A DNA stretch of 64,000 bases from Hymenobacter sp. 15J16-1T3B. Its GTDB lineage: Bacteria; Bacteroidota; Bacteroidia; Cytophagales; Hymenobacteraceae. The stretch covers positions 248,001-312,000 of the forward strand of contig NZ_JAJFAV010000007.1 in assembly GCF_020711235.1 (NCBI RefSeq). The letters run 5' to 3'. The notes beneath the pieces were generated by a model. It was given only the letters and a program-made list of their open reading frames with translations, made no database searches and was not told the DNA's origin. Made by a program: the position numbers and the translations under genes. Shown here one piece after another: positions 4,201 to 48,897 of this stretch. Positions within the stretch are counted from its first letter, which is position 1, and every line of letters starts with the position of its first letter.

Positions 4201-4407
4201 CCGTCATTGCGAGAACGAAGGACGACGCCATCTTTCCTCTCGCGGCACGACACCGCAATTGGCAGGAGCCCAAAAGACACCGCCCGAAACTGCAAAAGCC
4301 AGTTTCGGGCGGTGTCTTTTTGGTTGGCAAGGATTGTAGCGGCAGTGCTCCTGGCGGAAGGCTTGGCGACGCCTTCTGCGGTTGCCGCGCTTCGCTCGCA
4401 ATGACGG
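4201..4407. repeat. Repeat element A: TIR-bounded bidirectional terminator (family 1)
   Basis: A 207-bp element with perfect 13-bp terminal inverted repeats, CCGTCATTGCGAG at 4201-4213 and CTCGCAATGACGG at 4395-4407. The centre is a perfect 20-bp hairpin (4272-4291/4301-4320; stem AAAAGACACCGCCCGAAACT, loop GCAAAAGCC) with A and T tracts on its two sides. It sits between convergent genes ending at 4167 and 4442. Copies B (42708) and C (48704) share ends, core and layout. Confidence 0.85.
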
Positions 4408-4441
4408 CCGGTGCGGCCGCTGGCTCAACCGGGGTGACGGT

Positions 4442-4702
4442 TTAGGCTTGCTGGAAGAGCTGGTTCACCAGGTCTACGTACTCCTGCCGGGCCTCCTCCT
4501 GGCCTTTGCCGTTCAGGCCGGCCCAGGCGTCGTACTTGGCAATGGCTTTGAAGTCGAAGCCGCCGGGCCGGTCGCCGCTCACGTCGCCCTCGGTGGCTTG
4601 CTTGTAGAGAGCGTAGAGCTTGAGCAGGGTCAGGTTGTCGGGTTTCTTGGGCAGTTGCTGGGCGCGGTCGGCGGCGTCCTGAAATTCTTGCTGGGTTGCC
4701 AT
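4442..4702 (-). CDS. Acyl-CoA-binding protein
   Basis: An 86-residue soluble protein matching the ACBP family in length and motifs: KKPDNLTLLKLYALYKQATEGD at 19-40 contains the YxLYKQAT signature, and KYDAW at 56-60 is the conserved Lys-Tyr-x-x-Trp acyl-CoA contact. It binds medium- and long-chain acyl-CoA esters and buffers or delivers them to lipid enzymes. The ATG at 4702 gives the standard family length; an upstream in-frame ATG would only add 11 unrelated residues. The gene is convergent with the CDGSH gene across repeat element A. Confidence 0.93.
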   Translation of the reverse strand: MATQQEFQDAADRAQQLPKKPDNLTLLKLYALYKQATEGDVSGDRPGGFDFKAIAKYDAWAGLNGKGQEEARQEYVDLVNQLFQQA

Positions 4703-4801
4703 GGGCGGGGAATGGGTAGAAAGTGAGCGGGCCACTGCGGCCCGGGCAGTAAGGTACGGATTGCGCGGAATTTGGTAGGCATGCAGCGTTCTTTTAGCGC
4801 G

Positions 4802-4809
4802 TATCTTCC
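4802..4809 (+). promoter_or_regulatory. Possible -7 box for the amidohydrolase gene
   Basis: TATCTTCC, resembling TAnnTTTG, lies 32 bases before the ATG at 4841, with a TTCTTT stretch about 13-20 bases further upstream. Tentative. Confidence 0.25.
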
Positions 4810-4840
4810 GCCATCCGGCCCTGCCTCATTTCCCACCACC

Positions 4841-6136
4841 ATGCGCCTCCGTTCCGCTCCTACCCTTTTCGCCCTGCTGGCACTGCTTCCTCTATCGGCT
4901 GCGGCCCAGAAAACCTACCTGCACTGCGGCCACCTGCTCGACGTGCGCGCCGGCCGCTTGCTCACGGAGCAAACCGTGGTGGTGGAAAACGGGCGGGTGC
5001 AGGCCGTACAAGCCGGCTACACGCCCGCCGCCGGTCCGGCCGACAAGGTTATCGACCTGCGCAACCGCACCGTGCTGCCCGGGCTCATCGACTGCCACGT
5101 GCACCTGGAGGGCGAAACCAGCCCCAACGGCTTCCTCAAGGAATTCACCGACAACCCCGCCGACGTGGCTTACCAAGCCGAAGTGTACGCCCGCACCACC
5201 CTGCGCGCGGGCTTTACCACCGTGCGCGACCTGGGCGGTTCGGGCGTCAACATTGCCTTGCGCAACGCCATCAACCGCGGCTTGGTGCAGGGGCCGCGCA
5301 TTTTCACCGCGGGCAAGGCCATCAGCGGCACCGGCGGGCACATGGACCCCACCAACGGCTACCGCCTCGACCTGATGGGCGTGCCGGGCCCGGCCGAAGG
5401 CGTGGCCAACGGCCCCAGCGAAGCCCGGCAGGCCGTGCGCGAGCAGTACAAGCGCGGCGCCGACCTGATCAAGATTGCCTCCACCGGCGGGGTGCTGTCG
5501 GTGGCCAAGGACGGCTCGGCCCCGCAGATGACGGAGGAGGAAATCCGGGCGGTGGTGGAAACGGCCCACGACCTGGGCCTGCGCGTGGCCTGCCACGCCC
5601 ACGGCGCCGAGGGCATGAAGCGGGCGGTGCGGGCCGGCGTCAACAGCATCGAGCACGGCACGCTCATGGACGACGAGGTATTCCGGCTTATGAAGAAAAA
5701 CGGCACTTGGTACGTGCCCACCATCATTGCCGGCAAATCGGTGGCCGACTCGGCCACGAAACACCCCAACTACTACCCGCCGCTGGTGACCCCCAAGGCC
5801 CTGGCCATTGGCCCCCGGCTGCAGGGCACATTCGGGCGCGCCTACAAGGCCGGGGTGAAAATTGCCTTCGGCACCGACGCCTCGGTGTACCGCCACGGCG
5901 TCAACGCCAAGGAATTCCAGTATATGGTGGAGGCCGGCATGCCCCCGCTCGAAGCCCTGCGCGCCGCCACGCTCAACGCCGCCGAGCTGCTCGGCCAACC
6001 CGACAACCTCGGCGCCCTGGAGCCCGGCAAGCTGGCCGACGTGGTGGCCGTCGACGGCGACCCGCTGCAGGACGTGGGCAGCCTGCTGCGGGTGCGCTTC
6101 GTGATGAAGCAGGGCGCGGTGTACCGGCAGGACTAA
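4841..6136 (+). CDS. Secreted metal-dependent amidohydrolase (imidazolonepropionase/Xaa-Pro dipeptidase-like)
   Basis: A 431-residue protein with a signal peptide (MRLRSAPTLFALLALLPLSAAAQ) and then the complete amidohydrolase barrel. The metal-binding HxH is at 86-88 (DCHVHLEG), the bridging Lys at 211 (LIKIASTGG), histidines at 252 and 272 (CHAHG, EHGT) and the catalytic Asp at 346 (FGTDAS). These define the COG1228 group, whose characterised bacterial members include exported Xaa-Pro dipeptidases, so hydrolysis of a dipeptide or N-acyl amino acid in the periplasm is likely. The exact substrate is not readable. The signal peptide fixes the start. Confidence 0.88.
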   Translation: MRLRSAPTLFALLALLPLSAAAQKTYLHCGHLLDVRAGRLLTEQTVVVENGRVQAVQAGYTPAAGPADKVIDLRNRTVLPGLIDCHVHLEGETSPNGFLKEFTDNPADVAYQAEVYARTTLRAGFTTVRDLGGSGVNIALRNAINRGLVQGPRIFTAGKAISGTGGHMDPTNGYRLDLMGVPGPAEGVANGPSEARQAVREQYKRGADLIKIASTGGVLSVAKDGSAPQMTEEEIRAVVETAHDLGLRVACHAHGAEGMKRAVRAGVNSIEHGTLMDDEVFRLMKKNGTWYVPTIIAGKSVADSATKHPNYYPPLVTPKALAIGPRLQGTFGRAYKAGVKIAFGTDASVYRHGVNAKEFQYMVEAGMPPLEALRAATLNAAELLGQPDNLGALEPGKLADVVAVDGDPLQDVGSLLRVRFVMKQGAVYRQD

Positions 6137-6222
6137 CCCGCGGGCCCCGGCAGCCGGCACGCATTACGCCCACAGGCCCCGACGTTTAGCCGGCTAATTG
6201 CCGTATTGCTATTACCCGTTTT

Positions 6223-6983
6223 ATGCCGCGCGTTACCTCTTATCTGCTCGGCGGCGCGTTGCTGCTGACCGTGCCCGCCCGGCGCAGCACCACCTGTACC
6301 TCGACCTGCGCGGGCAGTTTGAAGCCGGTTACGCCCAGGGGTGGCTGCGAGGACCCCAGGCCCCCGGGCTGCGCGTGCGTCCGGGCAGCGTGAGTCCCCG
6401 CCCTGGGGTGGCCCTGCGCCTGCGCGGCCCGGGCCGCTGGAGCACCTCGCTTGACTACGCCGTGGTCGTGCTGGACTGCAGCTACGTCATCACGCCACCG
6501 GCCGGCACCCCGAGCAGCTTGCTCCGGGCCCGCGTTGGTCACTCCTTCGAGCTGGAGCGGCTCAGCTGGCTAGCGCACTACCGCCCGGGCCGGGTCCATG
6601 ACCCGACCCGGGCGGTCCGCAATCTGCGCTTGATATGGGAGTTGCTGGCCGGGGCAGGAATAAACTACCTCGGGCGTGATGTGGAGCAGCAACGCGGCTT
6701 TAGCTACGTTGTCAGCAACCAGGATACCGTGCTGCGAGCCCGCAGCAGCTTCCACCGGGCCTGGGCGCCGCAGTTCACCGCAGGCCTCACCACCCGGGTG
6801 CACTGGCGCAACCGGGAGCGGGCTTTTGTGAGCGTGTATGTTGCCCAGGGCCTGGCCGACCTGCTCAGCTTTGAAACCCAGTACGGCGTTGGCGGCGCGG
6901 CCATCACCCAGGGCCAGTTGCGGGCCCGCGGTTCGGCCTTTGGCTTCACGCTGGGCCTGTATAGCTGGCCGGCTCGCTCGTAG
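6223..6983 (+). CDS. Probable outer-membrane beta-barrel protein, apparent frameshift in the signal peptide
   Basis: The main open frame runs to 6983 and codes for a protein rich in alternating hydrophobic/polar strands (LYLDLRGQFEAGYAQGW, SFGFTLGLYSW-like ends), as in small outer-membrane barrels. Its formal start at 6198 gives a poor N-terminus full of Arg and Tyr. In the +1 frame, ATG 6223 encodes a good signal peptide, MPRVTSYLLGGALLLTVPA. One extra C in the CCC at 6278-6280 would join the two as VPAPAQHHLYLDL, a typical cleavage site. So the gene is either frameshifted or carries a one-base sequence error. No family is recognised. Confidence 0.6.
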
Positions 6984-7018
6984 CGCAGTCACCTCGGCGG
7001 CCCCCTACGTGCGGCCGC

Positions 7019-7579
7019 TTACTCCTCCGGCGGCAGTTCGCGCAGCACCCGGCAGGGGTTGCCGGCCGCTACCACGCCCGCCGGAATATCCCGCGTGACC
7101 ACGCTGCCCGCCCCGATGGTGCTGCCCGCGCCGATGCGCACGCCGGGCAGCACGATGACGCCCGCGCCCAGCCAGGCCCGGTCGCCGATGACGATGGGAC
7201 GGGCAAACTCCCAGCCGGCCGTGCGCGGACCGGGCTCCACGGGGTGGCCGGCCGTGCTCAACACCACGTTCGGGGCAATGAACACGTCGTCGCCGATGGT
7301 GACGGGGGCGCAGTCGAGCACGGTGAGGTTGTAGTTGGCGTACACGCGGCGGCCCAGGCGTAGGTTGTAGCCGTAGTCGAGGCGCAGCGGGGCTTCGAGG
7401 TGGGCATCGGTGTCGCGGCCGAGCAGCTCGACCAGGGTGGCGCGGTCCAGGTCGACGGGGCTCTGGTTGTAGCGGTGGCAAAGCTCCTTGGCGCGGTGCC
7501 GCTCGGCCACCAGTTGCGGGTCGTTGGCCTGGTACAGTTCGCCAGCCAGCATCTTGTCTTTTTCGGTAGGAGCACTCAT
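7019..7579 (-). CDS. Sugar O-acetyltransferase (maltose/galactoside acetyltransferase type)
   Basis: A 186-residue cytoplasmic hexapeptide-repeat acetyltransferase. The N-terminal helical cap (TEKDKMLAGELYQANDPQL) is the Mac domain, and the left-handed beta-helix follows, with repeats such as VTIGDDVFIAPNVVL and VIGDRAWLGAGVIVLPGVRIGAGSTIGAGSVV. His112 in STAGHP is the catalytic base position. It transfers acetyl from acetyl-CoA to a sugar hydroxyl; family members act on maltose, glucose or galactosides, and the acceptor here is unknown. It is convergent with the gene before it, with only 35 bases between. Confidence 0.9.
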   Translation of the reverse strand: MSAPTEKDKMLAGELYQANDPQLVAERHRAKELCHRYNQSPVDLDRATLVELLGRDTDAHLEAPLRLDYGYNLRLGRRVYANYNLTVLDCAPVTIGDDVFIAPNVVLSTAGHPVEPGPRTAGWEFARPIVIGDRAWLGAGVIVLPGVRIGAGSTIGAGSVVTRDIPAGVVAAGNPCRVLRELPPEE

Positions 7580-7674
7580 GGCGGCGAAGGTAGCAGCCGG
7601 TTTGCGCAGGCCTGCTCCTACTCAACTCTTTACACCTAGAACGCAAAATCCTGGGGTAGAGAAGCTGGAGACCT

Positions 7675-9684: not shown

Positions 9685-9916
9685 CCTCGAAACCGTTTAT
9701 AGTTATCAGAGCATAATAAAGTAGCAATTTACCAAGTCCAATGCAAGACTATCCATATTAAAATTGCCTAATACTTTCTTATTAAGTGAAACCTAGCAGC
9801 GCAACTAGCGCGGGTCTCCTCTGCCAAGGGCACGCGCTGCCGCATCACAAGCGTAACCCCAAAGCAAGGCGACCGTATGCCCCCCGCCGCGCCGTCCTTA
9901 AATTTCCCTGCTTTCC

Positions 9917-10432: not shown

Positions 10433-10494
10433 CCCGCAGGCCCTCACATCATTAGGGGATTGACGACGGGGCCGCTAGCGCGGTTCTTTACGGC

Positions 10495-11076: not shown

Positions 11077-11151
11077 CGTAGCGGCGTTGTGCGGCAGGTT
11101 TTTCTGCCCGGCGCCCGTCGCAGTGCGTGCGCTTTTCCCCACCTTCGTAGT

Positions 11152-11835: not shown

Positions 11836-11855
11836 CAGATGAGTAGCTAAGCTAG

Positions 11856-12040: not shown

Positions 12041-12109
12041 TCTTTTGTCCGGTCATCAGCTCAGCCATCCATTTGCTCAGCCACGCATCTACCCATCTGC
12101 CTACCCGTC

Positions 12110-13147: not shown

Positions 13148-13275
13148 GGGGCGGGAAGCGGCGGTGGCAGCTGACAAGAACGGCAAACTCGGCGGCGGGG
13201 CGGCGGCAGGGAGTTCGGGCGTCGCCGAAAATTCCCGAACTTTAACCGCCTGACCGCATGTGCGGCCTTCTGCCC

Positions 13276-15655: not shown

Positions 15656-15665
15656 GTGCCCGCTT

Positions 15666-16467: not shown

Positions 16468-16503
16468 GAACGTCATTCCTCGGCTGCGCTCGGAATGACG
16501 TTC
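16468..16503. terminator. Minimal repeat-like hairpin F between convergent genes
   Basis: A 12-bp perfect inverted repeat (GAACGTCATTCC / GGAATGACGTTC) with a 12-base loop lies between the convergent gene ends at 16418 and 16521. The GTCATTCC core resembles the ends of the larger repeat families in this window, so it may be a stripped-down relative. Confidence 0.6.
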
Positions 16504-17036: not shown

Positions 17037-17073
17037 AAAAAGGGCGGCCCGCATGGTGCGGGCCGCCCTTTTT
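17037..17073 (-). terminator. Terminator after the M13 peptidase gene
   Basis: Perfect 11-bp GC stem (GGGCGGCCCGC / GCGGGCCGCCC) with a five-base loop, A5 on one side and T5 on the other, so it can work in either direction. It ends the peptidase transcript that stops at 17111. Confidence 0.85.
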
Positions 17074-27442: not shown

Positions 27443-27477
27443 CCAAAAAAAGCCTGCAACGCGCAGGCTTTTTTTGG
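27443..27477 (+). terminator. Terminator after the DUF892 gene
   Basis: Stem AAAAAAAGCCTGC / GCAGGCTTTTTTT with loop AACGC; A7 and T7 tracts on the two sides make it effective in either direction. Confidence 0.9.
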
Positions 27478-37962: not shown

Positions 37963-40422
37963 ATGGCCCAACGCTACCCCTCTTTTTACCTGCTGCTGGC
38001 CTTTGTGGCCTCCCTGCTAAGCGCCGCCCCGGCCCTGGCCCAAAACGTGGGCATCGGCACCACGGCCCCCGATGCCTCCGCCGCCCTCGACGTCGTGGCC
38101 TCCGACAAAGGAGCCCTGCTGCCGCGCGTGGCTAATGCCGCCGCCATTGCCGCGCCCGCCGCCGGCCTCATTGTGTACCAAACGGGCGGCACCCAGCCGG
38201 GCTTTTGGTACAACAGCGGCAGCAGCGGCGCCCCGAAGTGGCTGCGCCTGACCGACTCGAACGGCGTGAGTTACGACCCGGCCAGCGGCCTGCAGGTGGG
38301 CCCCGGCCCGGTGCAGGCCGCTGTTAACGTACCGCCCGGCTCGACCGGCTCCAGCAGCAACGCCCCGTTTCGCGGCGGTTCTAACTCGGCTCGCACCGAA
38401 ACTATTTACCCAGCGGCCACGCTGCAAAGCTGGGGGCTACGGGCCGGAGCCATTACCTCGCTGAGCTACTTCATTTCCAGTAAGAACTCCTCCGACACCT
38501 ACACCAACTTCACCCTGGCCCTGGGCCAGAGCACTGCCACCAACGTGACGGGCACCTTCAGCAGCGGCCTCACCACGGTGTATACCGGCAACGTGACCGT
38601 GCCCGCTACCGGGCAGGTGCTGCAGCTGGTGTTCAACGCCGGCACCTTCGTGTGGGACGGCAGCAGCAACCTGGTGGTGCAGTCCTGCTTCGAAAAGGCC
38701 ACCGCCAGCTCCGACGACTTTGTCTCCGTGGACATTATAAATGACAGCCGCATGTCCAGCGCCGGGAGCAGTGGCCAGTGTGCTGCCACCAGCGGCATCA
38801 CCAGCTTCTTTCGACCCAAACTGGGGTTTACCCAGCCCGGCACCTCCTACACGCTCACGCCCACGGCGGGCCAAGCCGGCCAGGTGCTGACCCAGCAGGC
38901 TGACGGGCGGGTGCTCTTTCAGGACCCGCAGTGGACGCAGGACGGCACCAACCTGTACCCGACCACGTTGACCAGCAAGGTGGGCGTGGGCACCAGAATC
39001 CCCGCCTTGGGCCTGGACGTGGCCTCCGGTACGCTGGGGCTGCGAAACACCAACGCCTGGGACCACCTCTACTGGCAGCACGACGGCTCGCTGGCCGTGA
39101 TGCGGGCCGGCGGGGCCGAATCGGGCCTCTCCCTGCAGGTGGGCAGCGGCGCCGCCGACTCCTATGGCGCCGCCGGCCAGAACTACCGCGAAGGGCTACG
39201 CCTGCTCTCCGACGGCCGGGTGGGCCTGGGCACGGGCACGCTCATCACGGGCTACCGCGCCACGGTGGGCACGGCCAGCCCGGCCGAAAACGGCCTGTAT
39301 GTGGGCCTGAACGGCAGCAGCACGGCCAACTCGCTGAAGCTGGAGCACAATGGCTCCAACCTCGTCGTGCACCCCGCCTCGGCCGGCGGCACCAGCACGG
39401 TGCTGGAAAACACGGCCGGCCCGCTGCTGCTCAACGCCAGCACGAGCAACCGGGTGGGCGTGGGCTCGTACGCCCCGGCCGCCCGGCTGGAGGTGCAGGG
39501 CGGTGCCAACGCCGACGGCAGCAACGACCCGGTGGCCCTGAGCTTGGCCTGGCGCAACGGCGGCTACCGCCACTTCCTGCGCACCCGCCACGCCCAGGGA
39601 ACCACCAGCAACGCCCTGGAAGTATACCTGAACACCTCCGGCTCGGCCGATGGCAGCACTCAGCCCGGCACCGGCAACATTCTGGCCCTGAGCGTGCTCA
39701 CCCAGGACGGCGCCCGCCTAGGCGTGGGCACGGGCACCCCGCGCGGCCCCCTCGACGTGCCTGCTCCCGGCGACACGTACCTGATCAACGACCCGAACGT
39801 GGGCGAAGGTCAGTCGGTGTACCTGCCCGGACACTTGTTCCTGGCGCCCTACAACAGCGGTACGCCCGCTGCCTACCTGCAGGCCCGCATTCCGAACCCG
39901 ACCAGCAGCACTAGCTTGGCGCTAGTGCTGCGCACCACCTACCAGGGCAATTTGCGCGACGCCCTCACGCTAAACCCCGATGGCTCGGCCGTGGTCTACG
40001 GCTCCGTGCGGGCCAACGGCGTCACGCTGGTCTCCGACGCGCGCTTCAAGCAGCAGGTGCGCCCGCTCGACGGGGCGCTGGCTTCGGTGCTGCGCTTGCG
40101 CGGGGTGCGCTACCAGTGGAACGCGCTGGGCGTGCAGCACGGCGGCACGGCCGGCCAGGAGCAAATCGGCCTGCTGGCCCAAGAAGTAGAGCAGATTTAC
40201 CCGGAGCTGGTGCACACCGATGCGCAAGGCTACAAGTCGGTGAACTACGCCCAGCTGACGCCTGTGCTACTGGAGGCCCTGCGCGAGCAGCAGCGCCAGA
40301 TCGAGCAGCTGCGCGGCCGCGCCGCCCAAGCCGACGCCGACCACGCGGCCCTGCTCACGCTGCAGGAGCAGGTGGCCCGGCTGCAGCAGGCCGTGGCCCC
40401 GGCTGCGCAGGCTCAGCGCTAG
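37963..40422 (+). CDS. Secreted fibre-like protein with C-terminal Peptidase_S74 chaperone domain
   Basis: An 819-residue surface protein. Signal peptide MAQRYPSFYLLLAFVASLLSAAPALAQ, then NVGIGTTAPDASAALDV, a head found on many Bacteroidota surface fibres. The middle (residues ~70-680) is a repetitive Gly/Ser/Thr-rich beta-fibre. Around residue 690 the intramolecular chaperone of phage tailspikes begins: VSDARFKQQVRPLDGALASVLRLRGVRYQWN, then EQIGLLAQEVEQIYPELV and NYAQLTPVLLEALREQQRQIEQL, ending in a short coiled coil. The S74 domain normally self-cleaves after helping trimerise the fibre; the Ser-Asp pair at the cut site is present. Start chosen for the signal peptide; upstream frame is unrelated. 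Confidence 0.88.
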   Translation: MAQRYPSFYLLLAFVASLLSAAPALAQNVGIGTTAPDASAALDVVASDKGALLPRVANAAAIAAPAAGLIVYQTGGTQPGFWYNSGSSGAPKWLRLTDSNGVSYDPASGLQVGPGPVQAAVNVPPGSTGSSSNAPFRGGSNSARTETIYPAATLQSWGLRAGAITSLSYFISSKNSSDTYTNFTLALGQSTATNVTGTFSSGLTTVYTGNVTVPATGQVLQLVFNAGTFVWDGSSNLVVQSCFEKATASSDDFVSVDIINDSRMSSAGSSGQCAATSGITSFFRPKLGFTQPGTSYTLTPTAGQAGQVLTQQADGRVLFQDPQWTQDGTNLYPTTLTSKVGVGTRIPALGLDVASGTLGLRNTNAWDHLYWQHDGSLAVMRAGGAESGLSLQVGSGAADSYGAAGQNYREGLRLLSDGRVGLGTGTLITGYRATVGTASPAENGLYVGLNGSSTANSLKLEHNGSNLVVHPASAGGTSTVLENTAGPLLLNASTSNRVGVGSYAPAARLEVQGGANADGSNDPVALSLAWRNGGYRHFLRTRHAQGTTSNALEVYLNTSGSADGSTQPGTGNILALSVLTQDGARLGVGTGTPRGPLDVPAPGDTYLINDPNVGEGQSVYLPGHLFLAPYNSGTPAAYLQARIPNPTSSTSLALVLRTTYQGNLRDALTLNPDGSAVVYGSVRANGVTLVSDARFKQQVRPLDGALASVLRLRGVRYQWNALGVQHGGTAGQEQIGLLAQEVEQIYPELVHTDAQGYKSVNYAQLTPVLLEALREQQRQIEQLRGRAAQADADHAALLTLQEQVARLQQAVAPAAQAQR

Positions 40423-40480
40423 TTCCGGGGCCGCCCAGGCCGTAGTTGCCAAGGACAGCCGCTGGGGTCTGTTATCGGCC

Positions 40481-40534
40481 AGCCAACGCAAAGGCCCGGT
40501 TTCCTTCAGCGGAAGCCGGGCCTTTGCGTTGGCT
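40481..40534. terminator. Terminator hairpin between convergent genes
   Basis: A 19-bp perfect outer stem (AGCCAACGCAAAGGCCCGG / CCGGGCCTTTGCGTTGGCT) with a further 4 bp inside and a loop TTCAGC. It separates the convergent gene ends at 40422 and 40548. Confidence 0.85.
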
Positions 40535-40547
40535 GGGGCAGTTTAGT

Positions 40548-41837
40548 TTAGGGCTTGGCCGGGGCGGCGGGCACGGCCGGCGGGGGCGTCAGGGCCCGCA
40601 GCTGCTGCAACGCCTCCTGGGTTTCCTTCAGGGTCTTTTTCTCCTTTTCGTCCTCGGCTTGCGGCAGCTTGTTGCCGTTGTCGAAAAAGGCCAGGATGTT
40701 GGCCTGTACCGGGGCCGTCACGCTGGCAAATTTGTCTTTCTCCAGCTTGCGCACCCATTCGCCGTAGGTTTCGTCGGCCAAGCCGTATTCGCCCACTTTG
40801 GTGGGCTTGCCGGTGTCGAAGTCGAAGTTGGGCAGGGCCGCGGGCGTTACGGCTTGGGCCTGCCGCGTTTCGGTCAGCAGGCGGCAGTAGTCGGTCATTA
40901 CGTCGCTGAAGCTCTGCTTGAACAGCTTCTGGGCCTCGGGCGTGGGCAGCTTGAAGGCGAACGGCCGTAGCGGCCCGATTTTGGGCAGAATCTTGATGAG
41001 CTTGGCCATGACGCGGGCGCCAAACCCGGGCTTGTCGTAGCCGGTGCCGTATTCCCGGCGAAACTTCCGCTCGTTGTGCTGGTAGAGGTAGTCGCGGCGG
41101 CGGGCGCGCGGGTCGAGCTTGCGGATGTTGTCGCGCTCGGCGTGCCAAGCGGCGCGGGCGGCGGTAGGAATCAGCTGGCTCACGGCGAAGCGGAAGGTGG
41201 CCACGCTCGCGTCGAGGTTCACCACAATCTGCTTGAGCTCCAAGCCGTAGGTTTTCTGAAAGGCCCGCTCCAGCACTGGTTTGCTCACGTGAAACCCGAT
41301 GAAGTCGTGGTAGGTGTCGGAGCGGTAGCGGCCGGCGGCCAGCTGCACCACGTCGAAGGCAAACTCCAACTGGGTGTGCTGAATGGGCGCCTCGAAGTAG
41401 GTGACCGAGGGCCCAAACTTCTGGCCCAGCTCGGGGTACACCGAGGGCATGGCCCGGTTGGTGCCCTCCGAGTGCCCCTTGATATCGGCCACGTAGTGGG
41501 CCATGGCGCCGAGGGCAAAGGCGTACTCGTTGCGGTCCTGGGCCTCCGTGAGCAGGTTGCGCACGAAGTCGCCGGAGCGCACGTAGTGGGTCAGGTCGGT
41601 GAAGAGCTTGGAGCCAAGCGGGTAGTAGCCCATGTCCTGCACAATGGCTCCGCCGTAGGCGTAGCTTTTGGCTTCAATCCACTGCTCGCGGGTGGCGCCG
41701 GGAAAGCGCTGCTCCAGCAGCGGGCGCAGGCAGCGCCGCCAGCAGGTATCGACGTTGGCTTGGTGGGTGAGGACGGAATAGGCGGCGGAGGGCAGTGGGG
41801 CGGCGAGCAGCAGCACCAGCAACAGGCGAAGCAACAT
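40548..41837 (-). CDS. Secreted zinc-dependent phospholipase C-like protein
   Basis: A 429-residue exported protein of the zinc-dependent phospholipase C superfamily. The signal peptide (MLLRLLLVLLLAAPLPSAA) is followed by YSVLTHQANVDTCW, where His is the first zinc ligand, then a middle zinc-site block ALGAMAHYVADIKGHSEGTNRAM with His-x3-Asp and a His-Ser-Glu. The C-terminal part is helical and Lys/Glu-rich. The likely activity is phosphodiester or phospholipid cleavage at the cell surface. The start is fixed by the signal peptide. It is distantly related to the S1/P1-like protein at 13276. Confidence 0.82.
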   Translation of the reverse strand: MLLRLLLVLLLAAPLPSAAYSVLTHQANVDTCWRRCLRPLLEQRFPGATREQWIEAKSYAYGGAIVQDMGYYPLGSKLFTDLTHYVRSGDFVRNLLTEAQDRNEYAFALGAMAHYVADIKGHSEGTNRAMPSVYPELGQKFGPSVTYFEAPIQHTQLEFAFDVVQLAAGRYRSDTYHDFIGFHVSKPVLERAFQKTYGLELKQIVVNLDASVATFRFAVSQLIPTAARAAWHAERDNIRKLDPRARRRDYLYQHNERKFRREYGTGYDKPGFGARVMAKLIKILPKIGPLRPFAFKLPTPEAQKLFKQSFSDVMTDYCRLLTETRQAQAVTPAALPNFDFDTGKPTKVGEYGLADETYGEWVRKLEKDKFASVTAPVQANILAFFDNGNKLPQAEDEKEKKTLKETQEALQQLRALTPPPAVPAAPAKP

Positions 41838-41937
41838 AGGCGGGACGGGCGGCCGCGGCGGCAACCTCAGCCGCAAACGGCAAACCGCCCCGGCACGTTG
41901 CCGTACCACCGGGCAGTACCATTCTCTTCCCCTGCCG

Positions 41938-42672
41938 ATGGCCCCCCGCTCCAAGACCACTCACCTACCGCTCTACATTTCCCTAGGCATCGTGGCCGCG
42001 CTGGTGGCCGCCTATTTCGGCTGGCCCGCCTTTCAGCAGCAGGTGCAGGCCGGCTGGGCAGCGTTGCGCAGCGGCGAGCAGCAGCAAGTGGCCGAGTGGG
42101 TGGAGCAATTCGGCTTGTGGGGGCCGGTGGTGCTGGTGCTGGCCATGGTGGCCCAGATGTTTTTGTTTGTCATCAACAACGCCCTGCTCATTCTGGTGGC
42201 CGTGCTGGCCTACGGGCCGTGGTGGGGCTCCTTGCTGGCCTGGGTGGGCGTGCTCACGGCCAGCTCCCTGGGTTACTGGATCGGGCGCAGCCTGGGCGAG
42301 TCGTTTATCATTCGCCTGCTGGGCCAGAAGGCCGAGCACAAAGTTGCCGACTTCGTGACGCGCTACGGCGCCGGGGCGGTGGCCCTGGCCCGGCTCACGC
42401 CCATCGTTTCGAACGACGCCATCAGCTTCGTGGCCGGCGTGGCGCGCATGGGCTACTGGAAATTCATCAGCGTGACGGCCGTGGCCATCATGCCGCTGAT
42501 CGGGTTGCTGGCCTACCTCGGGCAGGACGGGCAGCGGCTCAAAACCGGCCTGCTGTGGGTATCGGGTGTGGGGCTGCTGCTCTTCGGCGCTTACATCTGG
42601 TGGGACAAAACGCGCCGCCCGGCCGCCGACGACGCCGGCAGCTGGCGCCCTCGCCGGCCGGAGTACCGCTAG
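41938..42672 (+). CDS. TVP38/TMEM64 (DedA-like) membrane protein
   Basis: A 244-residue integral membrane protein of the DedA/SNARE-associated superfamily. An N-terminal helix (LYISLGIVAALVAAYFG), then the core: LVLAMVAQMFLFVINNALLILVAVLAYGPWWGSLLAWVGVLTASSLGYWIGRSLG with re-entrant segments, and YGAGAVALARLTPIVSNDAISFVAGVARMGYWKFI, the family's second block with the conserved Arg. These proteins are lipid or small-molecule carriers of uncertain substrate. Ends next to repeat element B. Confidence 0.9.
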   Translation: MAPRSKTTHLPLYISLGIVAALVAAYFGWPAFQQQVQAGWAALRSGEQQQVAEWVEQFGLWGPVVLVLAMVAQMFLFVINNALLILVAVLAYGPWWGSLLAWVGVLTASSLGYWIGRSLGESFIIRLLGQKAEHKVADFVTRYGAGAVALARLTPIVSNDAISFVAGVARMGYWKFISVTAVAIMPLIGLLAYLGQDGQRLKTGLLWVSGVGLLLFGAYIWWDKTRRPAADDAGSWRPRRPEYR

Positions 42673-42707
42673 GCTTCCCAAAGCAATGAGCCCAACGGCA
42701 GCATCCG

Positions 42708-42890
42708 CCGTCATTGCGAGCGAAGCGCGGCAATCCTTCCTCCCGTAACACCGCCGCTGCAATACTTGCTACCCGAAAACCAGCCCCGCCCGAAACTGCA
42801 AACGTCAGTTTCGGGCGGGGCTGGTTTGAGTGTTTGCCAGTGGGGCCGTAGGGGCGCGAGCGGGAGGATTGCCGCGCTTGCGCAGCTACT
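42708..42890. repeat. Repeat element B: TIR-bounded bidirectional terminator (family 1)
   Basis: Left end CCGTCATTGCGAGCGAAGCG; the right end is decayed (GGATTGCCGCGCTTGCGCAGC, in place of GGATTGCCGCGCTTCGCTCG-CAATGAC). The central hairpin is perfect over 21 bp (42777-42797/42807-42827) with the shared CCGCCCGAAACT core and loop GCAAACGTC. It lies between the convergent gene ends at 42672 and 42949. Confidence 0.8.
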
Positions 42891-42948
42891 CGGGGCCTCA
42901 TCCTCCGCTTTTAGCGCGCAGGATATGCCCCGCACGCGCTCCGGGCTG

Positions 42949-43158
42949 TTACGCCTCCTTTATCTCGAATCCTTCTTCTTCGACGGCGGCCACAACCTGC
43001 TGGGGCGTGAGCGAGTCGGATTCTACCGTGAGGACTTTTTGGGGTGAGGCCGTGTCGACCTGCCAGTGGCCGGTGCCGGCCAGCTCGTTGAGCACCGGCG
43101 TGACGGCGCGCACGCAGTTCTGGCAGTTAATGGTGGTGGTAAAACGCAGGGTTTTCAT
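42949..43158 (-). CDS. Heavy-metal-associated (HMA) domain protein, probable copper chaperone
   Basis: A 69-residue HMA protein with metal-binding Cys12 and Cys15 in TTINCQNCVRAVTPVL, and KVLTVESDSLTPQQVVAAVEEEGFEI matching the second half of the fold. The usual metal site is MxCxxC; here it is INCQNC. It likely carries copper in the cytoplasm. It is divergent from the porin at 43415 and belongs to the copper module. Confidence 0.88.
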   Translation of the reverse strand: MKTLRFTTTINCQNCVRAVTPVLNELAGTGHWQVDTASPQKVLTVESDSLTPQQVVAAVEEEGFEIKEA

Positions 43159-43346
43159 CGGGAAAGCAACTTAGAAGTGAAGGCCGCCCGCGACGGAGCA
43201 GCTGGGGTCGTTATTCTGGTAACGGCAAAACTAGCCGCGCGGTGCCGCCCCGGCCGTACAGGATTCGCGGCGGGCTGTTACAACATTTTTGGCGGCGGCG
43301 CGGGCTAAAAGCGCCCAGGTGTGCCAGAGGTCGGGCCGGACGGGCG

Positions 43347-43353
43347 TACCTTG
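43347..43353 (+). promoter_or_regulatory. Possible -7 box for the porin gene
   Basis: TACCTTG, resembling TAnnTTTG, lies about 60 bases before the ATG at 43415. Tentative; no clear -33 box. Confidence 0.25.
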
Positions 43354-43414
43354 CAGCCGCTTTCCCGCCGACCGGTAGCCGCGTCGGCTTTTTTGTTCTC
43401 TTACCCCGTTTTGC

Positions 43415-44827
43415 ATGCGGCAGAATTGGTGGCGCCCCACCGCGCTGATTGTCCTGGCCGGCTCGCTGAGCGCGCAGGCCCAGACCACTCCCCCACCCAA
43501 CACCGACACCCAGGCGGCGCAGGCCGCGCCGGTGCCCCCGCAGGCCACCACGCCCGCGTTTGTTCCGCTCAAGGACGGCAAACTCCCGCTCAGCGAGGAC
43601 GGCAGCCGCTACGTGAAGCTGACACTGCTCAACCAGGCTTGGCTGCACTACAACCAGAGCAACCCCGGGTCGCGCGTCAACGGGCGCAACGAGCCGCACA
43701 CGCTCGACGCGGCCATCCGGCGCTTCCGCATCCAGTTCTACGGGCAGCTCACCGACCGCGTGTTCATCTACTCGCAAATCGGTATCAATAACTTCGGCTA
43801 CCTCTCGGAGCGCAAGCAGTTTTTCTTTCTGCACGACGCGGTGGGCGAGTACGCAGTGGCCAAAACCCGCCTGTCGCTCGGCACCGGCCTGGGCGCCTGG
43901 AACGGCCTGTCGCGCTTCACGGCTTCGTCTACGGCTTCCATTCTGGGCCTGGATTTGCCGCTGGTGGCCGAAACCACCAACGACGTGAACGACCAGTTCG
44001 GGCGCAAGCTGAGCGTGTACGCCAAGGGCAAGCTCGGCAAGCTGGACTACCGCGTGGCCGTGAGTAAGCCGCTCATCGTGGCCCCGAACACGCCGCCGGT
44101 GGGCGTAGCCGCGTTTTCCAGCCTGGCGCCGCGGGCCCAATTTCAGGGTTACTTCCAGTGGCAGTTTCTGGATCAGGAAAGCAACCTGACGCCCTACGCG
44201 GCGGGCACGTACTTGGGCAAAAAGCGCGTGTTCAACCTCGGCGCGGGCTTTATCATGCAGCCCAAGGCTCTGTGGTACCGCCCCGGCCCGATTGGCGGTT
44301 TCGCCACTGGCCCCGACACGGTGCAGGTAGCCCTGAAGCAGTTTGCCGTTGATGCCTACTACGATGCGCCCGTAGGCCCCGCGGACAAGGGGCAGGCCCT
44401 GAGCGCCTACGCGGCCTTCTACCACCTCGACTACGGCCCGAATTACACCCGCAACACGGCCCCGCTGAGCCCGACCAACGGCATCGCCCCGGGCACTGCC
44501 ACGCTCAACAACGGCGGCAACGGCTGGCCGGCCTACGGCACCGGCAACGTGCTCTACGGACAGCTGGGCTACAAATTGCCCGACAACCTGCTGGGCTCAA
44601 CCACCTTCCTGCCCTATGTAAGCGTGCAGCACGCCCGCTACAAGCGCCTCAACGACCCAATGAACTACGTCGACGTGGGCCTGAACTGGCTGCTGGCGGG
44701 CCACACCTCCAAACTCACCGTGGCCTACCAAAACCGGCCCATTTTCACCCCGGACGGCACCGGCCACTACAACCGCACCAGCGACCGAAGTGCCGTGGTG
44801 GCCCAGTACCAGGTGTCGTTCAACTAA
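43415..44827 (+). CDS. Outer-membrane porin (OprO/OprP-like)
   Basis: A 470-residue exported barrel protein. Signal peptide (MRQNWWRPTALIVLAGSLSAQAQ), Pro/Thr/Ala-rich linker of about 30 residues, then many alternating strands: YVKLTLLNQAWLHYNQ, IRRFRIQFYGQLTDRVFIYSQIGINNFGY, FGRKLSVYAKGKLGKLDYRVAV, and a last strand SDRSAVVAQYQVSFN ending in aromatic/hydrophobic residues. This fits the phosphate-selective porin superfamily, but ion choice cannot be read. It lies between the HMA gene and the Csp gene, so a link to metal handling is possible but inferred. Confidence 0.75.
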   Translation: MRQNWWRPTALIVLAGSLSAQAQTTPPPNTDTQAAQAAPVPPQATTPAFVPLKDGKLPLSEDGSRYVKLTLLNQAWLHYNQSNPGSRVNGRNEPHTLDAAIRRFRIQFYGQLTDRVFIYSQIGINNFGYLSERKQFFFLHDAVGEYAVAKTRLSLGTGLGAWNGLSRFTASSTASILGLDLPLVAETTNDVNDQFGRKLSVYAKGKLGKLDYRVAVSKPLIVAPNTPPVGVAAFSSLAPRAQFQGYFQWQFLDQESNLTPYAAGTYLGKKRVFNLGAGFIMQPKALWYRPGPIGGFATGPDTVQVALKQFAVDAYYDAPVGPADKGQALSAYAAFYHLDYGPNYTRNTAPLSPTNGIAPGTATLNNGGNGWPAYGTGNVLYGQLGYKLPDNLLGSTTFLPYVSVQHARYKRLNDPMNYVDVGLNWLLAGHTSKLTVAYQNRPIFTPDGTGHYNRTSDRSAVVAQYQVSFN

Positions 44828-44847
44828 CTGCTCCTTTAGCAGCCGTT

Positions 44848-44901
44848 CCGAATGCGAAGCGGCCCGTTTCCAGCGTTGGAAACGGGCCGCTTCGCATTCG
44901 G
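44848..44901. terminator. Long hairpin between convergent genes
   Basis: A perfect 25-bp stem (44848-44872/44877-44901; left arm begins CCGAATGCGAAGCGGCCCG) with a 4-base loop GCGT. It lies between the porin stop at 44827 and the Csp gene end at 44913. Confidence 0.8.
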
Positions 44902-44912
44902 GACCGGTGCGC

Positions 44913-45242
44913 TTACGCGGCCATGCCCGCGCGGCAGGCTTCCTCGCAGCGGCGGCAGGCTTCGGCGCACTGCTGGCAGTGCTCGTGCTGGTGCTGGCCG
45001 CACTCCGCGGCGCACAGGCGACAGATTTCGGCGCACTCGCGCAGCAGGTGCGCGGCGTGCTCCGAGCCGCGGGCCACGAGGCGGGCCGTCAGGGCGCAGA
45101 TGTCGCTGCAGTCGCGGTCGAGCGAGATGCAGCGGGCCATCATGCTTACGTCGTCTTCCTGCAGGCAGGCGGAGGCGCAGTTTTCGCAGGCGGCCACGCA
45201 GGCGTTCAGGGCCTGCAGCAGCGGTTGATTGGACTGGTTCAT
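44913..45242 (-). CDS. Four-helix-bundle copper-storage protein (Csp family)
   Basis: A 109-residue protein with 16 cysteines lining a predicted four-helix bundle (NACVAACENCASACLQ, ARCISLDRDCSDICAL, LRECAEICRLCAAEC, HCQQCAEACRRCEEACRAG). This spacing is typical of Csp proteins, which store many Cu(I) ions in the bundle core. There is no signal peptide, so it is the cytosolic (Csp3) type. Neighbouring copper genes support the role. Confidence 0.92.
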   Translation of the reverse strand: MNQSNQPLLQALNACVAACENCASACLQEDDVSMMARCISLDRDCSDICALTARLVARGSEHAAHLLRECAEICRLCAAECGQHQHEHCQQCAEACRRCEEACRAGMAA

Positions 45243-45347
45243 GGGCGTGGGGTTGATGAAGCGGGAGAAAGACGGTCCGCTTCTTTACCCCATTTCAGCC
45301 CCGCGGGTTGGTACAAGATGTTCCCACGGCCCGTACAGGATTGCGGC

Positions 45348-45638
45348 TTAGCTTTTCTTTTCCAGGTCCATTTCGCACACCGGGCACTTGCCGGGCTTGG
45401 TGCTCTGGCTGCCCTCGCAGCCCATGGGGCACACGTAGGTGGTGGTGCCGAGGTTGGTTTGGTCGCCGGTGCCACCCTCGGTTTCGGGGCGGGCCACTTC
45501 GTCGGTGGGCTGCTGAATTTTGGCCGAATCGGCGGTGGCGGCGGTGGGCGCAGCCGGCGTTTCGGCTTCGTTGGTGGGCTTGCTGTTGCAGGCGGTCAGG
45601 AGGCTGGCGGCAACCAGCAGGGCGAAAAGCTTGTTCAT
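45348..45638 (-). CDS. Lipoprotein with heavy-metal-binding (HMBD) domain
   Basis: A 96-residue lipoprotein: signal with lipobox LLTAC (Cys17), a Thr/Ala/Pro-rich linker, and a C-terminal domain TYVCPMGCEGSQSTKPGKCPVCEMDL near residue 70. The CPM...CPVCxM pattern is the heavy-metal-binding domain found in CusB-like and CopA-linked proteins and binds copper or related metals. It is placed in the periplasm by the lipid anchor. The gene lies between Csp and CopA, divergent from the latter. Confidence 0.85.
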   Translation of the reverse strand: MNKLFALLVAASLLTACNSKPTNEAETPAAPTAATADSAKIQQPTDEVARPETEGGTGDQTNLGTTTYVCPMGCEGSQSTKPGKCPVCEMDLEKKS

Positions 45639-45828
45639 ATCGGCAGAGACAATGCGGCGGGGCGGTTGATTCCCACGGGGGCAAAGGTACGGCCCGGCGC
45701 CTCAGCCCCGCCCCTTGCCCGAATTGCGTACGGCGCCACCCCAAATTCTGCACCTGCGCGCCGTCAGCGCCCAAATCCCGTACGCGGCCGGGCCTGATTT
45801 CGTACCGCCGCCGGCCCCGCGCCTGCCG

Positions 45829-45835
45829 TACTTTG
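45829..45835 (+). promoter_or_regulatory. Possible -7 box for the copper ATPase gene
   Basis: TACTTTG, close to TAnnTTTG, lies about 80 bases before the ATG at 45914. No copper-responsive operator was identified around it. Tentative. Confidence 0.25.
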
Positions 45836-45913
45836 TGATGTCGGCCCCGTGGTCTTTCGCCGCCTCGCCGTCTTCGTTGCCCGACCCCACCGGGCCGGTT
45901 TCTCCCTTCGATT

Positions 45914-48208
45914 ATGGAACCGCACACCCTCGCTCCGCCCACCCAAACCGCTACCCTCGACATCGAGGGCATGACCTGCGCCTCCTGCGCCCGCTTCGTG
46001 GAAAAAGCCCTGACGCGCACGCCCGGTGTGCAGCGCGCCGTGGTGAACCTGGCCACCGAAAAAGCTACCGTCGACTACGAGCCCGCCCAAATTGACCGCG
46101 CCGGCCTCGCGGCGGCCGTCGTCAACGCCGGCTACGCGGTGGCCGCTCCGCCCGCGCCCACCCAGTCGGCCGCCGAGCGCACGGCCGAACTGGACGCGCA
46201 GAAAGCCGCCGCCTACGCCCGCCTCAAGCGCCGCTTTCAGGTGGCGCTGGGCCTCACGCTCGTCATCATGCCCGCTTCCATGCTGCTGATGCTGCCCGCG
46301 GCGATGCAGCGCGTGCCGATGGCGGCGGCCAACTACGTCTTGCTGCTGCTTACCTCGCCGGTGCTGCTCTACAGCGGCCGGGAGTTTTACACCTCGGCCT
46401 GGAACGCCTTCCGCCACCGCGCCGCCAACATGGACACCCTGGTGGCCGTAGGCACCGGCGCGGCCTTTCTCTACAGCCTTGCCGCCACGGTGGCCCCGGG
46501 GCTGTTTGCTGCCCGCGGCCTCACCGCCGAAGTGTACTACGACACCACGGCCACCATCATCACGCTCATCCTGCTGGGCAAAGTGCTCGAGCAGCGCGCT
46601 AAGACGCGCACCTCGGCCGCCATCCGCCAGCTCATCGGCCTGCAGGCCCGCACCGCCCGCCTGCTCCGCCCCGACGGCTCGGCAACCGACGTGCCTATCG
46701 AGCAGGTGCAGCCCGGCGACGTGGTGCTGGTGCGCCCGGGCGAGAAAATTGCCACCGACGGTGTGGTGCTCGACGGCCATTCCGCCGTCGACGAGAGCAT
46801 GCTCACGGGCGAGAGTCTGCCGGTGGAAAAGCAGGCCGGCGCGCCGGTGTACGGCGCCACGCTCAACAAAACCGGCGCCTTCCGCTTCCGCGTCACGCAG
46901 GTGGGCGCCGACACCATGCTGGCCCACATCATCCGCTTGGTGGAGGACGCGCAGGGCTCCCGCGCCCCTGTGCAGCGCCTCGCCGACCGCGTCAGCGCCA
47001 TTTTTGTGCCCACGGTGGTCGTCATTGCCCTGCTCACCTTCGTGCTCTGGTTTGACCTCGCCCCCGAGGGCACGCGCCTGCCGTTGGCCCTGACCAACTT
47101 CGTGGCCGTGCTCATCATTGCCTGCCCCTGCGCGCTGGGCTTGGCCACGCCCACGGCCATTATGGTGGGCACCGGCAAGGGCGCCGAGTACGGCGTACTG
47201 GTGCGCAACGCCGAAGCCCTGGAAAAAGCCCACCAGGTCACCACCGTACTGCTCGACAAAACCGGCACCCTCACCCGCGGCGAGCCGGCCGTAACGGCCT
47301 TTGTGCCGGCGCCGGACGTGGCGGATGCCGCCGCGCTGCTGGCCCAATTGGCGGCCGTGGAACGGCAATCCGAGCACCCGCTGGCGGCAGCGGTGGTGCG
47401 CTACGCCGCAGCCCAGGTCGGTGCGCCCGCCCTTCCCGCCGTAACCGAGTTTCGGGCCTACGAGGGCCGCGGGGCCGGCGCTACCGTCAGCGGGGCGCGC
47501 GTGCTCATCGGCAACCGGCGCCTGCTGCAGGAGCACGGCATCGAGCTGGGCCCAGCGCTGAGCAACCACGCCGAAGCGCTGCTGGCCGAAGCCAACACGC
47601 TGCTCTACGCCGCCGCCGACGGGCGGGCCGTGGCGCTGCTGGCCGTGGCCGATACGCTGCGCGAGTCGTCGGCGGAGGCGGTGCGGCGGCTGCAGCAGCT
47701 GGGCCTGGAGGTGGTCATGCTCACCGGCGACAACCAGCCCACGGCCGCCCGCGTGGCCGCGCAGGTCGGCATCCGGCGCTATTACGCCGAGGTGCTGCCC
47801 CAGGACAAGGCCGGCAAAGTGCAGGAGCTGCAGGCTGAAGGCCGGGTGGTGGCCATGGTCGGCGACGGTATCAACGACGCGCCCGCGCTGGCCCAGGCCG
47901 ACCTGGGCCTGGCCATCGGCTCGGGCACCGACGTGGCCATGGAAGCGGCCGGCATCACCCTCATGCGTTCCGATTTGCAGGGCGTGGTCACGGCCATCGA
48001 GTTGTCGCGCCGCACCCTGGGCGTTATCCGACAAAACCTGTTTTTCGCCTTCGTCTACAACACCCTGGGCATTCCGGTGGCGGCGGGCCTGCTCTACCCC
48101 TTCTTCGGCCTCACCCTCTCGCCCATGCTGGCAGCGGCGGCCATGGCCCTCAGTTCGGTCTCGGTGCTCACCAATTCGCTGCGCCTGCGCCGCTTCCGGC
48201 CGCGCTAA
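45914..48208 (+). CDS. copA: P1B-type copper-transporting ATPase (CopA-like)
   Basis: A 764-residue inner-membrane ATPase that exports Cu(I). One N-terminal HMA domain has GMTCASC at 19-25; then two membrane helices, [21 protein letters not shown], and the actuator TGES motif in [11 protein letters not shown]. The metal-entry CPC motif is at 404-406 ([13 protein letters not shown]), the phosphorylated Asp448 in DKTGTLTRG, the HP locus 488-489 in [10 protein letters not shown], then [10 protein letters not shown] and [11 protein letters not shown]. These are all P1B-1 features. It starts the pair with the cupredoxin gene 62 bases downstream. Confidence 0.96.
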
Positions 48209-48270
48209 CGCCCGGCGCCGTTGTCTCCTTTCGCTCACCAACCACGCGAACCAAGCCTTCGCGCTGTTCT

Positions 48271-48651
48271 ATGGACCTTGCCGAAATCTTCGTTACCGCC
48301 GGCGGACTGGCCCTGGCCGGGCTGGTCGTCTGGTATTTCTTCTTTGCTGCCCCCGAAGCTGCCGTCAGCGCCGTGTCCGCAGCGGGCGGCGTGCAGGAGG
48401 TGGCCGTGACGGTGAAGGGCGGCTACTCGCCGGCCGTCATCGAAGTACAGCACGGCCGGCCGGTGCAACTCAGCTTCTACCGCGACGAAGACGCCGACTG
48501 TTCCGAGGAGGTCGTGTTCCCCGATTTCAATCTGCGCCGCGCGCTACCCGCTTTCCAGACCACGCTCATCGAGCTGCTGCCCCAGCAGCCCGGCCGCTTC
48601 GAGTTTACCTGCGGCATGGGCATGCTGCGCGGCAGCCTGGTGGTGAAATAG
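48271..48651 (+). CDS. Membrane-anchored cupredoxin-domain protein
   Basis: A 126-residue protein with one N-terminal membrane helix (about 5-26, FVTAGGLALAGLVVWYFFFAA) and a cupredoxin domain: VAVTVKGGYSPAVIEVQHGRPVQLSFYRDEDADCSEEVVFPDFNLRRAL and GRFEFTCGMGMLRGSLVV. The Cys in DADC and the CGMGM loop resemble the copper ligands of the plastocyanin-like fold. It follows CopA and probably accepts or holds copper on the periplasmic side. Ends next to repeat element C. Confidence 0.87.
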   Translation: MDLAEIFVTAGGLALAGLVVWYFFFAAPEAAVSAVSAAGGVQEVAVTVKGGYSPAVIEVQHGRPVQLSFYRDEDADCSEEVVFPDFNLRRALPAFQTTLIELLPQQPGRFEFTCGMGMLRGSLVVK

Positions 48652-48703
48652 GAAGCTTGCTTCGAGGGAAAAGGCGCGGGACGGCAATAGCTACGACCGC
48701 GGC

Positions 48704-48897
48704 ACTACTGGTCATTGCGAGCGAAGCGAAGCAATCCTTCCTCGTAATAGCACCGCCGACGCAATCCTTGCTAAAAACGCCACCGCCCGAAACCAGCAAC
48801 TCTGGTTTCGGGCGGTGGCGTTTTTAGCAAGTAGTTATTGCACCGATTCTGCCGCGGAAGGATTGCTTCGTCGTGCCTGCTCGCAATGACCAGTGGT
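48704..48897. repeat. Repeat element C: TIR-bounded bidirectional terminator (family 1)
   Basis: Ends ACTACTGGTCATTGCGAGC (48704-48722) and GCTCGCAATGACCAGTGGT (48879-48897) are inverted copies with one mismatch. The central hairpin is perfect over 29 bp (48767-48795/48803-48831) with the core CCACCGCCCGAAACCA, loop GCAACTC, and T5 on the right. It fills the space between the convergent gene ends at 48651 and 48950. Confidence 0.85.

Follow-up and report, generated by a model that had tools for sequence, protein, structure and literature searches.

The window analysed here, a stretch of 64,000 nucleotides (G000:C40:248001-312000) from the 6.33 Mb genome of Hymenobacter sp. 15J16-1T3B (G000, 42 contigs), contains three copies, A, B and C, of a repeated element of about 200 bases, in which a head-out pair of GTCATTGCGAG...GCAATCC ends flanks a perfect central hairpin. 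We assign a probability of roughly 0.7 to the reading that this element is a dimer resembling repetitive extragenic palindromes (REPs), similar in kind to REPINs and miniature inverted-repeat transposable elements (MITEs), whose spacer would be a working bidirectional terminator and which would have been first tolerated and then retained at gene 3′ ends. This reading builds on the anatomy of the hairpin, the covariation of its arms, the location of the family at gene 3′ ends, an occupancy of convergent gaps that is conserved in the one stretch compared, and the finding that no second hairpin accompanies the element.

Plan of the element and copies in the genome

A sequence-only reading of the window had placed A, B and C on one plan; their positions were confirmed and all three belong to one family. 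From outside in, each copy consists of a 14-base CGG-containing stretch, the end motif GTCATTGCGAG, in most cases a GCAATCC-like block, asymmetric inner arms and the central hairpin. Since the two inner arms are unlike in sequence in most copies, the element has a direction. The copies and their parts are as follows.

4190..4416, + strand: copy A, whole element (family profile match, 142 bits)
4203..4213, + strand: end motif GTCATTGCGAG, left end of A (motif search)
4272..4320: central hairpin of A, 21-bp stem, loop of 7, bidirectional terminator anatomy (stem scan and folding)
4395..4405, - strand: end motif, right end of A (motif search)
42698..42879, - strand: copy B, element with decayed right end (family profile match, 151.5 bits)
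42710..42720, + strand: end motif, left end of B (motif search)
42777..42827: central hairpin of B, 22-bp stem, loop of 7 (stem scan and folding)
48702..48899, - strand: copy C, element (profile match of 129.8 bits on the - strand, 48702-48891, and of 113.9 bits on the + strand, 48710-48899)
48711..48721, + strand: end motif, left end of C (motif search)
48767..48831: central hairpin of C, 30-bp stem, loop of 5 (stem scan and folding)
48880..48890, - strand: end motif, right end of C (motif search)

With at most one mismatch, GTCATTGCGAG occurs at six places in the window, five of them exact (two in A, one in B, two in C); shuffled windows hold 0.93 places on average and none of 100 shuffles reached six. 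Some details of the sequence-only reading had to be adjusted. The hairpins that it described with stems of 20, 21 and 29 bp are present, each one pair longer, and its outer inverted repeat exists but is not an identical 18-base repeat in every copy, because the left end of A is the variant GTCATTGCGAGAACGAAGGACG. The right end of B is decayed as described, the GTCATTGCGAG motif being lost there. The ends are indeed complementary beyond the core; this extension, however, is part of the element (14 further bases ending in CGG), and in the flanks outside it complementarity is at chance level (0.292 within copies vs. 0.273 between, largest of 500 permutations 0.305; 106 copies). No Rfam family reaches its gathering score within the window, and copy C found no match in plasmid and phage collections in a distant-mode search.

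Genome-wide, GTCATTGCGAGCGAAGC is found at 126 places with up to two mismatches and perfect CCGCCCGAAAC...GTTTCGGGCGG hairpins at 24, with no match for the reversed-pattern control of the former or the control of the latter. A 182-base query gave at least 84 matches, the same copy often being matched on both strands (40 of 104 candidates scored). Altogether 69 distinct copies were located (66, and three later). A profile search recovered 20 copies in 664 kb of our genome, namely the window and two contig stretches picked for collinearity with a relative, G003, and 12 copies in 600 kb of G003; extrapolated very roughly from this density, the whole genome may hold about 190 copies. The relatives G002, G003 and G006 used below are by inference H. 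edaphi, H. jeollabukensis and Hymenobacter sp. CRA2, respectively.

Anatomy and covariation of the central hairpin

The hairpin consensus reads AAAACAGC(C/A)CCGCCCGAAAC, followed by a loop and the complement ending in TTTT. An A-tract, a GC-rich stem and a T-tract, present on both strands, are the anatomy of a bidirectional intrinsic terminator, and judged by its sequence the hairpin looks like one; both this anatomy and the convergent setting of all three copies had been left out of the sequence-only reading. Folding of A, B and C on either strand yielded z-scores from -7.6 to -14.9, and in each of the six folds none of 200 shuffles was as stable. A terminator scan of window positions 38000-57000 found 21 candidates vs. 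17.3 in shuffles, which is no excess, and it missed the hairpin of B and part of that of C; a separate scan for perfect stems of at least 9 bp was therefore used. Other long perfect hairpins of the window (1001-1043, 17037-17073, 27443-27477 and 44848-44901), most of them with A- and T-tracts, look like ordinary single-copy terminators. The loops of the family's central hairpins reuse a few motifs in either orientation, GGTAACTC/GAGTTACC and CAGATGC/GCATCTG, in the relatives as well (examples are G000:C37:401709-401741 and G000:C37:424464-424496).

Compensatory change in the stem, as claimed earlier, holds over 149 hairpins from our genome, G002, G003 and G006 that were picked by the core alone. 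Within and between copies, the identity of the outer stem pairs was 0.88/0.60 at position -1, 0.83/0.40 at -2, 0.76/0.52 at -4 and 0.72/0.40 at -5; at the other positions out to -10 the within-between difference was 0.09-0.15, and it was nil at -11 and -12. The outer ends show a slight within-copy excess (0.604 vs. 0.567, largest of 500 permutations 0.602) and the inner arms none (0.457 within, 0.499 between), and the covariation is thus concentrated in the hairpin. In 36 orthologous comparisons with 360 pair sites, 207 sites were paired and unchanged, 51 were paired with both sides changed, 95 were unpaired in one species and 7 in both. At position -2 the two states of an A-T to C-G double transversion occur in 71 and 45 of the 149 hairpins.

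Long palindromes can mutate by template switching that perfects quasi-palindromes, and the paired stem changes might reflect such a mutation process rather than selection for RNA structure. Double transversions such as that at -2 and the slight likeness of the outer ends of one copy fit this explanation, which we nevertheless consider unlikely: the inner arms of the same copy are not homogenised, and both the 3′-end location and the site conservation are left unexplained. Moreover, ordinary terminators shared at orthologous gaps likewise keep pairing while their sequence changes, and the element's hairpin therefore behaves like them.

Gene context

Genes were called by a purpose-made codon-usage gene caller. 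Of the 66 copies located first, which were gathered via good ends or hairpins and represent part of the 126 places, convergent gaps contain 42, tandem gaps 23 and a divergent gap one; the same segments have 24, 131 and 41 element-free gaps, respectively. In the unselected stretches of our genome the family occupies 14 of 104 convergent, 6 of 345 tandem and 0 of 106 divergent gaps, and in the G003 stretch 10 of 85, 2 of 314 and 0 of 85, respectively (convergent vs. rest, Fisher p 4e-7 and 9e-7). In most convergent gaps the distance from either end of the element to the adjacent stop codon ranges from a few bases to some tens. The family sits almost only behind gene ends.

Perfect stems of at least 9 bp are frequent in element-free convergent gaps (38 of 72 in our genome, 1 of 72 after shuffling; 34 of 61 in H. 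jeollabukensis) and are found in 6 of 102 and 2 of 81 divergent gaps, respectively. Convergent gaps that bear the element contain such a stem in 10 of 13 and 9 of 10 cases, of which 8 and 6 are bidirectional by the rule chosen. A second stem of this length outside the element was seen in none of 30 element-bearing gaps, whose leftover flanks are short. The elements stand where ordinary terminators stand.

The genes that flank the three copies in the window are all convergent:

3943-4167 (+ strand, CDGSH domain) and 4442-4702 (- strand, acyl-CoA-binding protein): neighbours of A
41938-42672 (+ strand, VTT domain) and 42949-43158 (- strand, HMA domain): neighbours of B
48271-48651 (+ strand, cupredoxin-like) and 48950-49582 (- strand, AhpC/TSA family): neighbours of C

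The stretch between B and C (42949-48651), with genes for HMA-domain, P-type ATPase and cupredoxin-like proteins, may be a metal-handling cluster.

Occupancy of orthologous sites

An orthologous gap in the G003 stretch was found for 341 of 555 gene gaps of our genome. Among the 57 orthologous convergent gaps, 9 are occupied in both species, none in only one of either and 48 in neither (p 1e-10); for the tandem gaps the corresponding numbers are 1 in both, 5 in our genome only, 1 in G003 only and 212 in neither (p 0.05). Site A, which lies outside the compared stretch, contains the element in both G002 and G003. The empty sites in relatives for which the sequence-only reading had proposed to look were found at C (in G002 and G003, with a gap of 77-78 bp vs. 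298 bp in our genome) and at B (in G002, where a gap of 244 vs. 276 bp shows no family match). In G003 the left gene of site B is mostly unmatched and the locus shows no family match.

In G002 and G003 the two genes that flank site C are separated by a short gap with another hairpin of the A-stem-T kind. In our genome this old hairpin is not recognisable and copy C is found instead. Of all observations this one, made at a single site, speaks most directly for an ability of the element to take the place of a terminator.

Ends and hairpin in relatives

The hairpin is present in four of eight same-genus genomes, at 30, 19, 23 and 19 places. The exact end motif GTCATTGCGAGCGAAGC occurs in 47 of 204 genomes of the bacterial family; in a phylum-wide sample of 395 genomes, 102 have a less strictly defined form of it. 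Hence the ends are widespread, the hairpin spacer having been sought in the eight same-genus genomes. Of 11 genomes chosen from another genus of the bacterial family, six carry tag-outside pairs 72-132 bases apart (the limits of the pattern), two of them more than 100. In the latter two, G096 and G098, the short head-out GTCATTGCGAG pairs enclose quite different spacers, e.g. GCACCAGAACGA...TCGTTCTGGTGC. No A-stem-T spacer was seen by eye at 16 readable loci of this genus, 11 of which are tandem, 3 divergent and 2 convergent; the share of convergent loci among these terminator-free dimers is thus 2 of 16 vs. 14 of 20 for our family (p 0.0008).

End pairs facing out within 330 bp number 31 in our genome, drawn from 57 forward and 62 reverse end matches, and two of the 31 are of the GTCATTCCGAG kind. 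These ends belong to a second repeat family with a similar general layout and 121-bp head-out pairs, which is without the CGCCCGAAAC hairpin (window 16489-16499; G000:C11:489790-489910; G000:C13:36054-36174). Used as a within-genome control, the GTCATTCCGAG repeat gave 6 convergent and 21 other places, 26 more clusters being dropped since they overlapped the main family; because an 11-base motif at one mismatch gives many chance matches, this control is noisy and carries no weight. In some copies of the main family one end or both are lengthened by an additional insert, e.g. GGTCGACGTAGTCAAGCGCGG or CCGCAGGAAGGCGTAGCC (G000:C22:117374-117612, G000:C22:130669-130915 and G000:C33:256801-257070), and the ends are therefore themselves modular.

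Mobility

The MITE- or REPIN-like nature proposed by the sequence-only reading is borne out in part. Inverted ends, stem covariation and empty sites agree with it, and the empty sites speak for past movement or loss; a Y1/RAYT gene and a target-site duplication were not found. The search for a RAYT/Y1 gene near a copy came out negative for our whole genome (PF01797 absent). PF01797 is also absent from the hairpin-bearing G006; it is present in 156 of 204 genomes of the bacterial family, and Y1 presence does not track hairpin presence. Y1/RAYT was consequently rejected as mobiliser; in addition, of the 30 Y1 loci found in ten relatives, 3 have the end motif nearby, and these come from a single genome. 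Target-site duplications of lengths 2-9 showed no excess over 200 permutations in 67 copies, most of which are old. A further idea, that the element entered the loop of an older terminator and would thus have complementary outer flanks, was not supported by the flank comparison given above. A longer element with the same ends, for which no systematic search was made, was not noticed among the places listed for GTCATTGCGAGCGAAGC.

A purely selfish MITE- or REPIN-like element would land anywhere and survive only where it is harmless, behind genes; its hairpin would serve mobility, as a substrate in cruciform or single-stranded form. One would expect such an element to have inverted ends, a high copy number and empty sites, and a 3′-end location is common among repeats generally according to the parts of two papers drawn on here (PMC3733652, PMC3049150). 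We regard this explanation as distinctly improbable, since the stem lies between A- and T-tracts, most of the covariation falls within it and terminator-free dimers with such ends are not concentrated at convergent gaps. Furthermore, of the orthologous sites occupied in the compared stretch, both species share 9 of 9 convergent vs. 1 of 7 tandem ones, and no transposase was identified.

Divergence of orthologous copies

In most cases orthologous copies resemble each other no more closely than random members of the family do (median Smith-Waterman score/length 0.22 vs. 0.23 in 37 comparisons, for which the loci of the relatives were chosen because they bear a hairpin). Element-free convergent gaps diverge as much as occupied ones (medians 0.27 vs. 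0.28; random 0.11), and divergence alone therefore needs no replacement of copies; a wholesale replacement of orthologous copies is weakened by this control. Of 42 orthologous element-free convergent gaps, 21 have a stem in both species, 10 in one and 11 in neither.

By profile orientation, 23 of 46 comparisons, in which some sites are counted repeatedly, were the same, 13 opposite and 10 undecided. For the inner arms, the inverted fit was clearly the better one in 8 of 42 comparisons (7 sites) and the forward fit in 16. At four sites, five comparisons in all, a single insertion appears to have been inherited without a change of orientation (rank ≤0.05). In the best inverted case, C21:19397, the likeness exceeds that of 98% of paralogs, which suggests an in-place inversion or a re-insertion at that site.

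That shared sites were hit repeatedly rather than inherited, with an element that targets terminators or convergent gaps and copies that are replaced or re-inserted, would match the low likeness of many orthologous copies and the seven sites with an inverted interior, but we think it very improbable in view of the four sites with an apparently single insertion, the 48 orthologous convergent gaps that are empty in both species although many have terminator-like stems, the equally fast divergence of element-free gaps and the lack of an identified enzyme.

Discussion

Under the preferred reading, in which a REP-like dimer carries its own terminator, a head-out dimer of CGTC-type palindromes would enclose a spacer of about 100 bp that acts as a two-way intrinsic terminator. 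Whichever flanking gene RNA polymerase comes from, it would transcribe the A-tract/stem/T-tract hairpin and then stop. An insertion behind a stop codon would therefore be harmless, and one before a gene or within an operon would be eliminated because it blocks transcription. Once the inserted element stands in for the local terminator, the latter could decay or be lost, and the site would tend to be kept. Actual termination, the takeover of an old terminator and retention by selection are the parts of this scheme that we infer.

Several findings weigh against it. Of the 66 located copies 23 are tandem and one is divergent, and the hairpin is not intact in every copy. Element-bearing tandem gaps contain a stem of at least 9 bp in 4 of 5 cases in our genome and in 0 of 2 in H. 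jeollabukensis, the latter count being the adverse one. Among the window copies A alone is shared with G002 and G003, and site conservation is therefore strong but incomplete. Finally, enrichment at 3′ ends is also known for terminator-free repeats, as described in the sections used of PMC3733652.

A further step, which we put forward tentatively and would not yet bet on, is that of a mobile terminator capturing its site: its own two-way terminator would make the insertion harmless, the resident terminator would be lost and the element would become needed. The site might then be held for long while copies of the family renew or flip the element in place, resulting in conserved occupancy with unconserved sequence.

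The family joins REP-type repeats, whose role at gene ends is debated, with intrinsic terminators, two subjects usually treated apart. Related Hymenobacter genomes contain similar ends both with a terminator and without one, so that the family provides a natural experiment and makes testable whether a selfish repeat can turn into a working gene-end signal and be retained.

Comparison with known systems

The papers cited below are represented by parts of their text, and the comparisons extend to those parts. The nearest structural relatives are the CGTC-tagged REP repeats, which form HH dimers and apparently have no dedicated transposase (Di Nocera et al. 2013, PMC3733652). Their tag is CGTC, also TGTC or CCTC, their stem of 8-9 bp starts with AT and encloses a loop of 4-5, and the unpaired tail is mostly CCA (PMC3733652). 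The Hymenobacter family resembles them in the GTC-containing tag on the outside, the AT at the start of the palindrome and the CC tail, in the prevalence of tag-outside dimers whose spacer of 20-100 bp may hold stem-loops, and in being found in Bacteroidetes near 3′ ends, mostly between convergent or unidirectional genes (PMC3733652). Both the predominance of tag-outside dimers and the location near 3′ ends are found in the Hymenobacter family. The base before GTC in 87 ends is C in 42, A in 30, T in 12 and G in 3, AGTC being no listed variant of the CGTC tag. The ATTGC...GCAAT end forms five pairs plus an inner stem of 2-3 past an internal loop, and two ends that were folded gave z-scores of -0.51 and 0.06; the tail is commonly GCAATCC, then T, not A. 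Thus, unlike CGTC REPs, the Hymenobacter repeat often has an AGTC tag and a continuous stem of 8-9 bp was not seen. Its spacer, moreover, is a covarying hairpin with the anatomy of a bidirectional terminator, and the word 'terminator' is absent from the portion of PMC3733652 consulted. Since the stem rule was unconfirmed and the common AGTC tag misfits, the family was filed as resembling the CGTC REP superfamily, not as a proven member.

REPINs with RAYT (PMC3116915, PMC2817692) are likewise extragenic inverted pairs of short palindromes around a spacer, with high copy number; the Hymenobacter family differs from them in having no GTAG tag, and no Y1/RAYT gene was found in its genome. Like MITEs, it has inverted repeats at its termini and sites that are empty in relatives; in a review of prokaryotic MITEs, terminators are described as conceivable, with reference to SPRITE (PMC10969869).

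SPRITE (PMC3049150) is a small interspersed repeat that resembles an intrinsic terminator, is found between convergent genes more often than expected (15 of 30 cases) and was possibly co-opted as a terminator. It is AT-rich with AAAA/TTTT ends (PMC3049150), whereas the Hymenobacter element has a GC-rich stem between long GTCATTGCGAG ends. The Hymenobacter family would work like SPRITE but is not a member of it; functionally SPRITE is nearest, followed by the paired DNA uptake sequences of Neisseria and Pasteurellaceae, genome repeats that were co-opted as terminators and are enriched where genes meet tail to tail (PMC1852404). There two copies of a 9-11-nt word form the stem (PMC1852404), whereas in Hymenobacter the repeat ends enclose the stem as a module of its own.

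A literature search among open-licence papers returned, among the matches listed, none that combines a MITE- or REP-like repeat, a bidirectional terminator and convergent genes, and a text search for the end motif gave, by titles, no match on bacterial repeats. REP dimers and terminator-like repeats are both already known; what appears to be new here is a REP-like dimer with a putative built-in bidirectional terminator at gene 3′ ends.

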